From Clostridiales bacterium (GTDB taxonomy: Bacteria; Bacillota; Clostridia; Christensenellales; Aristaeellaceae), in contig SVGJ01000019.1 in assembly GCA_015056415.1 (NCBI GenBank), positions 1 through 39,827 on the forward strand: DNA of 39,827 nt. Direction: 5' to 3'. The position numbers and the translations under genes were made by a program. Below are positions 10,808-13,654 of the stretch, piece by piece. How positions within the stretch are numbered: position 1 is the first letter of the stretch; each line of letters begins with the position of its first letter. A model generated the notes under the pieces. That model was not told the origin of the DNA and did not search any database. It saw only the letters and a list, made by a program, of their open reading frames with translations.

Positions 10808-11509
10808 ATGAACCGTTTATTCCTCAAGGGTGTGAAGCACGGCATACCCATCGCGCTGGGGTACCTCTCGGTGTCCTTCACCTTCGGCATGAAGGCCGTG
10901 GGCGATGGCCTCACCTGGGCGCAGGCGGTGCTGATCTCCATGACCAACGTCACCAGCGCCGGCCAGTTCGCGGGGCTGCCGCTGATGCTGGCCCAGGCCT
11001 CCCTGATCGAGGCGGCGCTGACCCAGTTTATCATCAACCTCCGCTATGCCCTGATGGGCGTATCCCTCTCGCAGAAGCTGGATCGTTCCATGACAACCCC
11101 GCACCGGATGTGCTTCTCCTTCTGCAATACGGACGAGATCTTCGCCGTGGCCTCCTCCCAGCCGGAAAAGGTGAGCAAGTGGTACCTCTACGGCCTGATG
11201 TCCACCCCCTGGCTGGGCTGGGCGCTGGGCACGCTACTGGGCGCCGTGGCCGGACAGCTGCTGCCGGTGTTCTTCCGCTCCGCCCTGGGCATTGCCATCT
11301 ACGGCATGTTCCTGGCCATCATCCTGCCCCCCGCGCGCAGGGAACACCCGGTGCGGGTGGTGGTGCTCATCGCCGTGGGGCTGAGCCTGTGCTTCCGCTA
11401 TATTCCCGGACTGAACCAGCTCTCCAGCGGATTCGTGATCATCATCTGCGCGGTGGTCGCCTCCACTATGGGCGCGCTGCTGTTCCCCGTAAAGGAGGAT
11501 GAGGCATGA
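10808..11509 (+). CDS. azlC: AzlC family branched-chain amino acid export permease
   Basis: Large subunit of a two-component exporter of the LIV-E/AzlC family, for which export of branched-chain amino acids or their analogues is the known role. The 233-aa product is almost wholly hydrophobic with several membrane segments and has the family opening GIPIALGYLSVSFTFGM and the TNVTSAGQFAGL and QFIINLRYALMG segments. ATG 10808 is used: upstream in-frame starts lie at or before the predicted transcription start, and the first membrane segment begins about ten residues after this Met. A modest GAGG (10793-10796) lies upstream. Its stop overlaps the azlD start as ATGA, indicating translational coupling. 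The actual substrate is not evident. Confidence 0.9.
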   Translation: MNRLFLKGVKHGIPIALGYLSVSFTFGMKAVGDGLTWAQAVLISMTNVTSAGQFAGLPLMLAQASLIEAALTQFIINLRYALMGVSLSQKLDRSMTTPHRMCFSFCNTDEIFAVASSQPEKVSKWYLYGLMSTPWLGWALGTLLGAVAGQLLPVFFRSALGIAIYGMFLAIILPPARREHPVRVVVLIAVGLSLCFRYIPGLNQLSSGFVIIICAVVASTMGALLFPVKEDEA

Positions 11510-11823
11510 GCTGGAGCGATTTTTTTCCCTACCTGCTGGTAATGGCCGGCGTGACCTATCTGATCCGTATGCTGCCGCTGACGGTCTTCCGCAGGGAGAT
11601 CAGGAGCGTGTTCGTCAAATCCTTTCTGCATTACGTTCCCTATGCTGTGCTTGGCGCCATGACCTTCCCCGATGTGCTCTATTCCACCGACAGCCTGTGG
11701 ACGGCGCTGGCAGGCCTGGTGGTGGCTATCATCATGGCCTGGCGCGGCCGCAGCCTGCTGACGGTGGCCATTGGCGCCTGCCTGGCCGTCGCCGCGGCGC
11801 AGGGCGTGATGCTGCTGCTGTAA
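11506..11823 (+). CDS. azlD: AzlD domain protein, small exporter subunit
   Basis: A 105-aa membrane protein with about four hydrophobic segments, the usual size and composition of AzlD. TYLIRMLPLTVF in the first third and YVPYAVLGAMTFPDVL in the middle are typical of the family. It partners AzlC to form the exporter. ATG 11506 overlaps the azlC stop codon by four bases, and the GGAGGATGAGGC just upstream supplies the ribosome-binding site inside azlC. A terminator follows eight bases after the stop. Confidence 0.9.
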   Translation: MSWSDFFPYLLVMAGVTYLIRMLPLTVFRREIRSVFVKSFLHYVPYAVLGAMTFPDVLYSTDSLWTALAGLVVAIIMAWRGRSLLTVAIGACLAVAAAQGVMLLL

Positions 11824-11830
11824 TTCGTTC

Positions 11831-11863
11831 AGCCGCCTGTTGAAAAGTACAGGCGGTTCTTTT
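11831..11863 (+). terminator. Rho-independent terminator after azlD
   Basis: CCGCCTGT (11833-11840) pairs with ACAGGCGG (11849-11856), followed by a T-rich stretch interrupted by one C. Confidence 0.82.
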
Positions 11864-11865
11864 GC

Positions 11866-11892
11866 ACCCTGTTTTCCTCCGCGCATAGTCTG
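11866..11892 (+). promoter_or_regulatory. Possible mother-cell (sigma-K or sigma-E) promoter of the cotJ operon
   Basis: AC (11866-11867), 16 bp, then CATAGTCTG (11884-11892) resembles the sigma-K pattern AC-N16/17-CATANNNTA, with the last base off. GCATAGTCT also matches the sigma-E -10 at the invariant GCATA and final T. No sigma-A hexamers are seen between the preceding terminator and the gene. Weak motif evidence, supported by the coat function of the genes. Confidence 0.35.
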
Positions 11893-11940
11893 ATCATGCA
11901 GGCCCCGCCTGCAATACCCACAGGAAGGATGACCTGCCCT

Positions 11941-12678
11941 ATGCGTAACGATTTCATCGGCGCCAGCATCGACGGCGACGCCCGTGCCGCCTGCGGCTGC
12001 CATGGCAACGGAGCCAACACCATCAACACCGCCGGCTGCGGCTGCGACAACAACCGGCAAGCCCGCTGCGGCTGCGGCAACACCCGCCAGAGCCGCCAGA
12101 ACAGCAACTCCTGCGGCTGCGACGACTGCGAAAAGGATTACTCCCGCCAGAACAACAAGCCCTGCGGCTGCGATTACGACAACCGCCAGTCCCGCAAAGG
12201 CGGCTGTGACGACTGCGAGAAGGATTACTCCCGCCAGAACAATAAGCCCTGCGGCTGCGATTACGACAATCGCCAGTCCCGCAAAAACCGCTGCGACGAC
12301 TGCGACTATTCCTGCGGCGGCCGCGCCCCCGCCATGGTGTATGCCGAACACCACGATCTGGACAGCATGTACTGTGCGGAAAAGGCCCTCATCCGCGGCA
12401 CGCTCTTCGGCTGCCTCGACAAGCCCATGTGCAACGAGCAGTGTAGCGGCGACGCCTGCGCTACCAAGTGTCAGGAGGACAAATTCGCCATCTGGGAGCT
12501 GCGGCTGTACCTGAACACCCACCCCTGTGATCAGAAGGCGCTGGCCCTGCTGCGCAAGCTCACCGAACAGATGGATGAGGACTGCGCCTGCGCCTACACC
12601 TCCGACTGCAACCGCTGGTCCTGGCTCGATGGCCCCTGGCCCTGGGAATATCAGCGCTGCTGCGGAAAGGAGGCATAA
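11941..12678 (+). CDS. Fused CotJA-CotJB spore coat protein with cysteine-rich repeat N-terminus
   Basis: Predicted inner spore-coat protein of 245 aa, structural rather than enzymatic. ATG 11941 is preceded by AGGAAGGA (11922-11929) at 11 nt; ATG 11929 is an alternative four residues longer. Residues 1-128 hold 18 cysteines, mostly as CGC or CDDC, with two near-identical 29-residue units. Residues about 129-165 match CotJA (AMVYAEHHDLDSMY, then a GTLFGCLDKPM motif). Residues about 180-238 match CotJB (FAIWELRLYLNTHP and DGPWPWE). In Bacillus and most Clostridia CotJA and CotJB are separate short proteins, so this is a fusion with a new N-terminal domain. The whole protein has 30 cysteines (12%), suggesting disulfide cross-linking or metal binding in the coat. 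cotJC starts three bases after the stop, in the canonical JA-JB-JC order. Domain recognition is confident; the role of the Cys region is inference. Confidence 0.88.
   Translation: MRNDFIGASIDGDARAACGCHGNGANTINTAGCGCDNNRQARCGCGNTRQSRQNSNSCGCDDCEKDYSRQNNKPCGCDYDNRQSRKGGCDDCEKDYSRQNNKPCGCDYDNRQSRKNRCDDCDYSCGGRAPAMVYAEHHDLDSMYCAEKALIRGTLFGCLDKPMCNEQCSGDACATKCQEDKFAIWELRLYLNTHPCDQKALALLRKLTEQMDEDCACAYTSDCNRWSWLDGPWPWEYQRCCGKEA
12121..12306 (+). repeat. 87-bp coding tandem repeat in the CotJA/B fusion
   Basis: Two 78-bp blocks at 12121-12198 and 12208-12285 are almost identical at the DNA level and spaced 87 bp apart. A third partial copy begins at 12295 (CDDCDYS). The period is a multiple of three, so copy-number change would keep the frame. 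Each unit encodes CDDCEKDYSRQNNKPCGC and a charged spacer. Confidence 0.9.
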
Positions 12679-12681
12679 GCC

Positions 12682-13293
12682 ATGTTTGTGTATGAAAAGA
12701 AGCTGCAATATCCCGTTCGTATCCGCAAGCCGGACCAGCGCATGGCCTCGGTGATCATCAGCCAGTACGGCGGCCCCGACGGTGAGCTGGGCGCCTCCCT
12801 GCGCTACCTGAGCCAGCGCTATTCCATGCCCTACAACGAGCTGAAGGGCCTGCTGACCGATGTGGGCACCGAGGAGCTGGGCCACCTGGAGATGGTGGGC
12901 AGCATGATCCATCAGCTGACCCGCGATCTTTCCGACAAGCAGATCCAGGACAGCGCCTTCGCGCCCTACTTTACCGATCACGGTCTGGGCGTGTATCCCC
13001 AGTTCGCCAGCGGTCAGCCCTATCATGCCGCTGCCATGGCGGTGAAGGGCGATCCCATCACCGACCTGCATGAAAACCTGGCTGCCGAGCAGAAGGCCCG
13101 CACCACCTATGAAAACCTGATCCACCTGGCCGACGACCCTGACGTCATCGACGTGCTGCGCTTCCTGCGCGCCCGCGAGATCGTCCACTACCAGCGCTTT
13201 GCCGAGGCCCTGGCCATCGTGCAGGATCGCCTGGAGGAAAAGAATTTCTATTCCTTCAACCCCTCGCTGCAGTGCGAGTGCAAAAACAAATAA
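12682..13293 (+). CDS. cotJC: CotJC spore coat protein, manganese-catalase family
   Basis: Spore-coat protein of the Mn-catalase/ferritin-like superfamily, 203 aa, normal for CotJC. ATG 12682 follows AAAGGAGG (12666-12673) by 8 nt. The N-terminal MFVYEKKLQYPVRI, the EELGHLEMVGSMIHQL segment and the later AEQKARTTYENL and REIVHYQRF segments supply the Glu/His pairs expected for a di-manganese site, so peroxide-scavenging activity is possible, although the main known role is as a coat component. The C-terminus NPSLQCECKNK adds two cysteines, in keeping with the Cys-rich partner encoded just upstream. It is the last gene before a terminator. Confidence 0.93.
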   Translation: MFVYEKKLQYPVRIRKPDQRMASVIISQYGGPDGELGASLRYLSQRYSMPYNELKGLLTDVGTEELGHLEMVGSMIHQLTRDLSDKQIQDSAFAPYFTDHGLGVYPQFASGQPYHAAAMAVKGDPITDLHENLAAEQKARTTYENLIHLADDPDVIDVLRFLRAREIVHYQRFAEALAIVQDRLEEKNFYSFNPSLQCECKNK

Positions 13294-13310
13294 ATCCAAC
13301 ACCCCGGCAG

Positions 13311-13337
13311 GCGGCGTGTATGCACACGCCGCTTTTT
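13311..13337 (+). terminator. Rho-independent terminator after cotJC
   Basis: GCGGCGTGT (13311-13319) pairs perfectly with ACACGCCGC (13324-13332) around a 4-nt loop, followed by five Ts. Confidence 0.9.
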
Positions 13338-13369
13338 GCACATCCTGCTGGCAGGAGGTTTTCACACGC

Positions 13370-13654
13370 ATGAAGGAATGGCGGGATGATTTGGCGAAAA
13401 AGATGGATGAGCACCTGCAGCGGCTGGAACAGCTCCATCTGGCGGAATACCTGGCATACGCGCAGGATCGCAGGCGGCTCATCCGCAATCACTTTCTGGG
13501 CGGACTGGCCCGGGGCGCCGGCATGGCCGTCGGCTTTACGATCCTGGGCGCCATACTGGTGATCTTTTTGCGGCATCTGGCGGAGCAGAACCTGCCCCTC
13601 ATCGGCGATTTTCTGGCACAGATCGTCACCGTGGTGCAGCGTAGATTGGAGTAA
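13370..13654 (+). CDS. DUF5665 domain-containing small membrane protein
   Basis: A 94-aa protein of unknown function. The N-terminal half is charged and helical (KKMDEHLQRLEQLHLAEYL), followed by RNHFLGGLARGAGMAVGFT, which leads into a single membrane helix (about residues 50-70), then an amphipathic tail. This is the arrangement seen in DUF5665 proteins of Clostridia. ATG 13370 has AGGAGG (13353-13358) 11 nt upstream. lspA starts two bases after its stop, so it heads an operon with lspA, the pseudouridine synthase and the nucleotidyltransferase. I could not identify a convincing promoter in the 32 bp between the cotJC terminator and this gene. Confidence 0.8.
   Translation: MKEWRDDLAKKMDEHLQRLEQLHLAEYLAYAQDRRRLIRNHFLGGLARGAGMAVGFTILGAILVIFLRHLAEQNLPLIGDFLAQIVTVVQRRLE

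Follow-up and report, generated by a model that had tools for sequence, protein, structure and literature searches.

Whether CotJA and CotJB are really encoded as a single protein at this locus, and what such a protein, bearing a cysteine-rich extension, would do for the catalase-like enzyme encoded just behind it, are the questions raised by the window, that is, the whole stretch of 39,827 nucleotides analysed here. In B. subtilis, cotJA, cotJB and cotJC are described as tricistronic (PMC8745062). The locus resembles the cotJ operon of B. subtilis and the cotJB/Mn-catalase operons of C. difficile in that it holds the same two Pfam families, with CotJC last. In these organisms, however, CotJA and CotJB are each a short protein of its own, whereas here they lie in one open frame. 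Moreover, we know of no cysteine-rich CotJ extension in B. subtilis or C. difficile. The features of the locus are the following.

11865..11893, + strand: sigma-K-like promoter, CAC, 16 bases, CATAGTCTGA (pattern match, alignment of congeners)
11897..11913, + strand: inverted repeat TGCAGGC-CCC-GCCTGCA between promoter and ribosome site (sequence, alignment)
11922..11928, + strand: likely ribosome binding site AGGAAGG, 12 bases before the ATG (sequence)
11941..12678, + strand: fused gene, 245 aa, with Cys-rich domain, CotJA and CotJB (open reading frame, Pfam, relatives, CotJC tree)
11941..12324, + strand: residues 1-128, built of repeats, 18 Cys (repeat and residue counts)
12113..12286, + strand: two tandem units of 87 bases (29 codons), 94% identical in DNA (repeat comparison)
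12328..12426, + strand: CotJA domain, residues 130-162 (Pfam)
12427..12465, + strand: linker of 13 residues, 163-175 (gap between the two Pfam matches)
12466..12648, + strand: CotJB domain, residues 176-236 (Pfam)
12682..13293, + strand: intact cotJC, 203 aa, Mn-catalase family (PF05067, E 4.7e-55)
13081..13092, + strand: unoccupied insertion site in cotJC, GCTGCC^GAGCAG (comparison with occupied relatives)

CotJA and CotJB joined in one protein before CotJC

The fused frame is open over its 245 residues, with no internal stop, and hmmscan against Pfam detects in it CotJA (PF11007, 26.4 bits, E 6.4e-6) and CotJB (PF12652, 47.2 bits, E 2.6e-12), each over its curated cut-off (25 and 29 bits, respectively), and no further family. 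The initial annotation had placed the CotJA part at residues 129-165; the profile does match there, at residues 130-162, with a score barely above the cut-off. In fused relatives, the CotJA score is 47 bits in one congener (G003) and 22.3 bits, below the cut-off, over the whole frame of a cysteine-poor member (G015). When 17 fused proteins were scanned together at E 0.01, all 17 matched both CotJA and CotJB, which were their sole domains, the N-terminus being without a Pfam match. The AlphaFold model of the JA-JB core is weak (mean pLDDT 66, pTM 0.57), with ten-residue pLDDT means above 80 solely at its residues 51-80, and comparison of the fused core with solved structures gave no match at E 1.

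The start of cotJC lies three bases past the TAA of the fused gene, as originally read. The likeness of its product to Mn catalases, also proposed at the outset, is borne out at the level of sequence: CotJC aligns over 179-187 residues with two proteins of known structure, pseudocatalase 1jku and Alr3090 (6j42), and keeps Glu and His residues that are presumably the ligands of the Mn site, although it is shorter than these catalases (203 versus 236-266 aa). On the minus strand, a 696-aa open frame (window 11398-13488) runs antisense to the fused gene and cotJC; GC-rich third codon positions are its probable cause.

The genome of the window, in which the fused gene is present in a single copy, is a draft in 82 contigs (84% complete), and this fragmentation would be the ground for suspecting an assembly or sequencing artefact, with two genes joined via a lost stop or a frameshift. 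Neither a stop nor a frameshift, however, separates the JA and JB parts in the window or in the other 28 fused assemblies. In addition, the fused genomes form one clade, and in eight genome pairs pN/pS amounts to 0.20-0.45 for JA-JB (0.02-0.24 for CotJC residues 1-135, 0.40-1.25 for the N-terminus), JA-JB being under purifying selection. An open fused frame in 29 genomes excludes chance or assembly error, and an artefact of this kind is regarded as extremely improbable. What is encoded just before CotJC is a single conserved protein, under selection, that unites CotJA and CotJB.

With regard to the upstream region, an in-frame ATG at 11896 was considered as the start and rejected: conservation favours 11941, since the head MRN[DE][FY]IG is conserved from there on and the preceding DNA holds the promoter. 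Specifically, upstream alignments of congeners have CAC-N16-CATA-N3-TG(A) in common, and the pattern found upstream of the fused genes resembles what we take to be the sigma-K promoter consensus. In the window, CAC-N16-CATA-N3-TGA matches once against 0.03 expected, and is present in three of 100 shuffles; the pattern was taken from these same alignments and its rarity is thus post hoc, while the form without the final GA is not unusual in the window. A looser form, AC-N15..18-CATA-N3..4-TGA, precedes 19 of the 29 fused genes (three of the ten lacking a match have less than 430 bases of upstream sequence) and totals 33 matches, those 19 included, in 434 kb (both strands, all loci used). The inverted repeat, possibly an operator or a leader hairpin, is kept in six aligned group A genomes, two of which differ at the last base, and has a similar version in three group C genomes. 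An AGGAAG-like site at about equal distance from the start is found in most aligned relatives. SpoIVA is present in the genome of the window, in 26 of the 29 fused genomes and in 147 of the 308 genomes across the family; the fused genomes in which it was not found (G010, G011, G179) are 65-73% complete. In C. difficile, a sigK mutant is reported to show lowered expression of the cotJB-type/Mn-catalase operons (PMC3789822).

Distribution and origin of the fused frame

The same architecture was sought with a profile of the fused core, which matched 49 of 308 genomes of the family and revealed both domains in one open frame in 29 of them, the window's included: 16 of the 18 members of the window's genus (g1), 12 genomes of g14 and one of g16. 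Among the other 20 matched genomes, 19 have separate CotJA and CotJB frames and one (G174) is a genome in which CotJA was not found; likewise, 33 of 34 unfused genomes examined have two frames, G174 being the 34th. cotJC comes next on the same strand in all 29 fused cases. A search of 100 relatives found CotJB in 35 and CotJA in 35, over the cut-off in 34. As for named genomes, a close-relative search with the full protein gave no match, while alignment of the core gave 213 relatives, the best 80 of which comprise 27 fused and 53 separate cases, a ratio biased by the query being itself fused. The named fused relatives among these best 80 are for the most part Clostridia assembled from gut metagenomes, often those of deer, sheep, goat and buffalo; Candidatus Limiplasma stercoravium and a 'Christensenellaceae bacterium' are among them. 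The fused CotJA-CotJB with a cysteine-rich extension belongs to one group of uncultured gut bacteria.

The history of the fusion was read on a tree of CotJC (first ~135 residues; 56 rows, 28 fused and 28 unfused), which omits one fused genome (G183) and six unfused loci because of a short or weak CotJC. The fused state changes once on this tree, with branch support of 99/92 and in 97% of 200 bootstrap trees; as the 28 fused rows form one clade, the fusion has a single origin there. Within the family, cotJB of unfused genera (g25, g30 and g82 among them) can start within cotJA or a few bases from its end, in another frame, so that the loss or gain of a few bases, shifting the frame, could have given rise to the fusion. 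A second CotJA-CotJB fusion, devoid of the Cys domain, is found in another family (f67) among the matches listed from 391 genomes of the class. It occurs in two genomes, G381 and G658, in both of which cotJC breaks off early, and both domains are over the Pfam cut-offs in the following frames.

L205, 1243-1743, + strand: fused frame in f67 (G381)
L206, 1661-2425, - strand: fused frame in f67 (G658)

In two further genomes among the same listed matches (G559, G589), CotJA and CotJB are separate. In the open-licence literature, judged by titles and abstract openings, no report of a CotJA/CotJB fusion was found.

The cysteine-rich N-terminus and its possible role

Counting finds the 18 cysteines ascribed to residues 1-128, and 12 more in the remainder of the protein. 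The interpretation given in the initial annotation, in which the fusion would fix the JA:JB stoichiometry and the Cys region would add disulfide cross-links or metal binding, holds in part: the fusion is real and Cys is the best kept of the common N-terminal residues, but the domain was not part of the fusion event, six of the 29 fused proteins being without it. In particular, 23 of the 29 fused frames have at least ten Cys before CotJA and six have 0-3 (G015, G179, G181, G183, G185, G187), in counts that start at the last stop, so as to include codons 5' of the start, and in which contig ends cut some frames; G015 has two Cys in its whole protein. On the tree, the Cys-domain trait changes at least four times inside the fused clade and six times overall. 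Elsewhere in the order, cysteine-rich stretches are also borne by unfused CotJA frames (33 Cys in G091 and 12 in G073) and by unfused CotJB frames (21 Cys within DPCK repeats in G060, 9-15 in genus g30), those of G091 and G060 being confirmed by Pfam.

L005, 1747-2658, - strand: Cys-rich unfused CotJA frame (G091)
L008, 1498-2070, - strand: Cys-rich unfused CotJB frame (G060)

On these three grounds, the Cys domain is a trait separate from the fusion event. The recurrence of such stretches on different CotJ subunits is our best argument that they serve the module. Among the CotJC tails read (14 of the 28 fused rows, the window's own excluded), two or more Cys are found in members of the window's genus alone, and the association of this tail with Cys in the fused protein had no statistical support, with one or two independent pairs.

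The N-terminus changes fast yet retains Cys best among its common residues. Over 15 pairs, 77% of Cys is kept (of 504 aligned), the corresponding figures being 62% for G, 56% for R, 52% for N, 49% for D, 48% for A and 30% for S. Three residues with small counts equal Cys or come close to it: 80% for I, 92% for M and 70% for W. For G000-G006 and G000-G004, two pairs with aligned N-termini 45-48% identical, pN/pS exceeds 1, so that much of the domain may be undergoing relaxed or diversifying change; in three other pairs it is 0.40-0.57. The length and spacing of the repeat units vary widely among congeners, and in the window four of the five codons that differ between the tandem units do so synonymously, which suggests that the thing kept is the protein rather than the DNA. 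A CGCD-repeat pattern run over the whole genome gave 19 matches, four in the fused gene and 15 scattered, against nine for the reversed-pattern control, and with this one pattern no second Cys-repeat gene was found in the window's genome.

Part of this picture would fit a fast-evolving spore-surface or spacer region, whose cysteines would derive from slippage of CGC-unit repeats and serve no dedicated chemistry: change is fast, with pN/pS up to 1.25, the repeats differ by species, and short or Cys-poor versions exist. Slippage, however, sits poorly with the retention of Cys above most neighbouring residues, with the largely synonymous differences between the tandem units and with the reappearance of Cys-rich stretches on different subunits, and this explanation is considered improbable. 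A metal store for Zn, Mn or Fe, feeding or buffering for example the Mn enzyme CotJC, is another alternative. Dense CGC and CxxC motifs stand amid Asp and Asn, the CxC and CxxC spacing is equally compatible with metal binding, the CotJB frame of G060 carries its DPCK repeats, and the adjoining gene encodes a homologue of Mn catalases. Nonetheless, Mn is rarely bound by thiols, residues 1-128 hold just one His, and so variable a unit length and spacing suits loose cross-linking over a defined cluster. Both readings fit the sequence data; a metal store, the main rival, is regarded as rather unlikely, and a cross-linking Cys module is preferred.

The reading that we favour, with confidence somewhat on the positive side, is that the fused protein acts as a spore-coat adaptor, a one-piece CotJA-CotJB for CotJC equipped with a Cys cross-linking module. 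Specifically, the protein would be made late in the mother cell, as the sigma-K-like promoter suggests, and its CotJA and CotJB parts would hold the Mn-catalase-like coat enzyme CotJC, a role attributed to the separate proteins of other spore-formers. On meeting oxidising conditions, the Cys-rich N-terminus may form disulfides with itself and with its neighbours, by analogy with CdeC, and such cross-links would fix the catalase layer into the coat. Cross-linking would not be essential to the adaptor, given that six of the fused proteins are without the Cys domain and that one of them has so few cysteines.

Many cysteines are likewise found in CdeC/CdeM of C. difficile, ExsY/CotY of Bacillus and CsxA of C. 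sporogenes, proteins of the spore outer layers which, as far as we know, are not attached to CotJ domains. In the Pfam scan of 17 members, no sequence relation to CdeC or ExsY/CotY was found, and the likeness would be an analogy of working and not membership. CdeC, which has 37 Cys and carries repeats, is described as self-assembling, its lamellae disappearing when treated with DTT, and Cys-rich exosporium proteins as self-assembling partly via disulfides (PMC7677010).

cotJC as a split gene in relatives

The cotJC gene of the window is whole, with an unoccupied insertion site. In 10 of the 29 fused genomes, however, cotJC is cut short, always at one codon, ...LAA^E. In three of these both halves lie on one contig and strand, separated by inserts of 11,179 bases (G015, L149 1290-12468), 10,872 bases (G180, L150 2032-12903) and 9,150 bases (G182, L151 1784-10933), each bearing the 8-base core GCAGCAGA at either end; removal of the insert in a script restores open cotJC frames of 200, 198 and 210 codons, respectively. 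The elements that interrupt cotJC after codon ~137 are thus 9-11 kb long and carry a large serine recombinase and varied cargo. The recombinase lies beside the 3' half of cotJC in 10 of 11 genomes examined there, and beside the 5' half in G176; in the three that were scanned, Resolvase and Recombinase domains are accompanied by a Zn-ribbon. The cargo differs among the three elements listed, and no phage structural gene was recognised by eye.

The interruption extends beyond the fused genomes. Among the 80 named loci (L069-L148, the best 80 of 213), cotJC is whole in 51, meets a contig edge in one and breaks early in 28, counts of early ends rather than of located second pieces, in which single sequencing errors are possible at each locus. 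The breaks fall at codon ~137 (13 loci), 62-68 (seven), 31-33 (five), 54 (two) and 44 (one), and three places, QYGG^PDGE, LLTDIG^TEEL and LAA^EQKAR, account for 25 of the 28. In the alignment, these three places adjoin Glu/His motifs, which we take to be ligands of the Mn site. Among the matches listed, 15 come from genomes assembled into a single contig, and in these (loci L210-L227) cotJC lies in distant pieces in eight and is whole in seven. Four of them have it in three pieces (G371, G481, G545, G497), with breaks at codons ~33 and ~58-66. The pieces lie on opposite strands and 227 kb apart in G524, and 157 kb apart in G383, which indicates that not every split cotJC is a simple insert. 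Serine-recombinase genes are present in the cotJC gaps examined, and each of eight scanned has matches to Resolvase and Recombinase. In addition, a cotJC piece is found on six (L196, L197, L198, L199, L200, L201) of nine IMG/VR contigs that encode a related recombinase, so that such elements are partly classed as viruses; in three of them (L198, L199, L201) the recombinase is oriented towards the 5' half of cotJC, as in G176.

The elements that interrupt cotJC are likely of a skin-like class, and by analogy with skin, gin and yin (PMC5595907, PMC10747680) they would excise in sporulation. No report of cotJC as a split gene was found in the open-licence literature, as judged by titles and abstract openings. 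The nearest precedent found is prophage phi027, which adjoins cotG, a CotJC homologue of C. difficile.

Judging from these sequence features, the joined CotJA-CotJB with its fast-changing Cys-rich extension is most likely a scaffold that would lock the catalase-like enzyme into the coat. A broader possibility, which we put forward tentatively and at somewhat less than even confidence, is that the CotJ module has been repeatedly remodelled to fix the coat catalase: here through a self-curing, Cys-linked CotJA-CotJB clamp, and elsewhere, in many other Clostridia, through the splitting of cotJC by excisable serine-recombinase elements aimed at metal-site motifs, so that the catalase would need one or two exact excisions in the mother cell.

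That CotJA and CotJB occur naturally in one piece implies that the pair act side by side with CotJC, and lets structure and binding be studied on one construct. Moreover, Cys-rich and Cys-poor versions within one clade represent a natural comparison for asking whether Cys cross-links harden the catalase layer. If excision during sporulation is true, the sigK-skin phenomenon would be extended to the gene of a coat enzyme, and at an unusual frequency.
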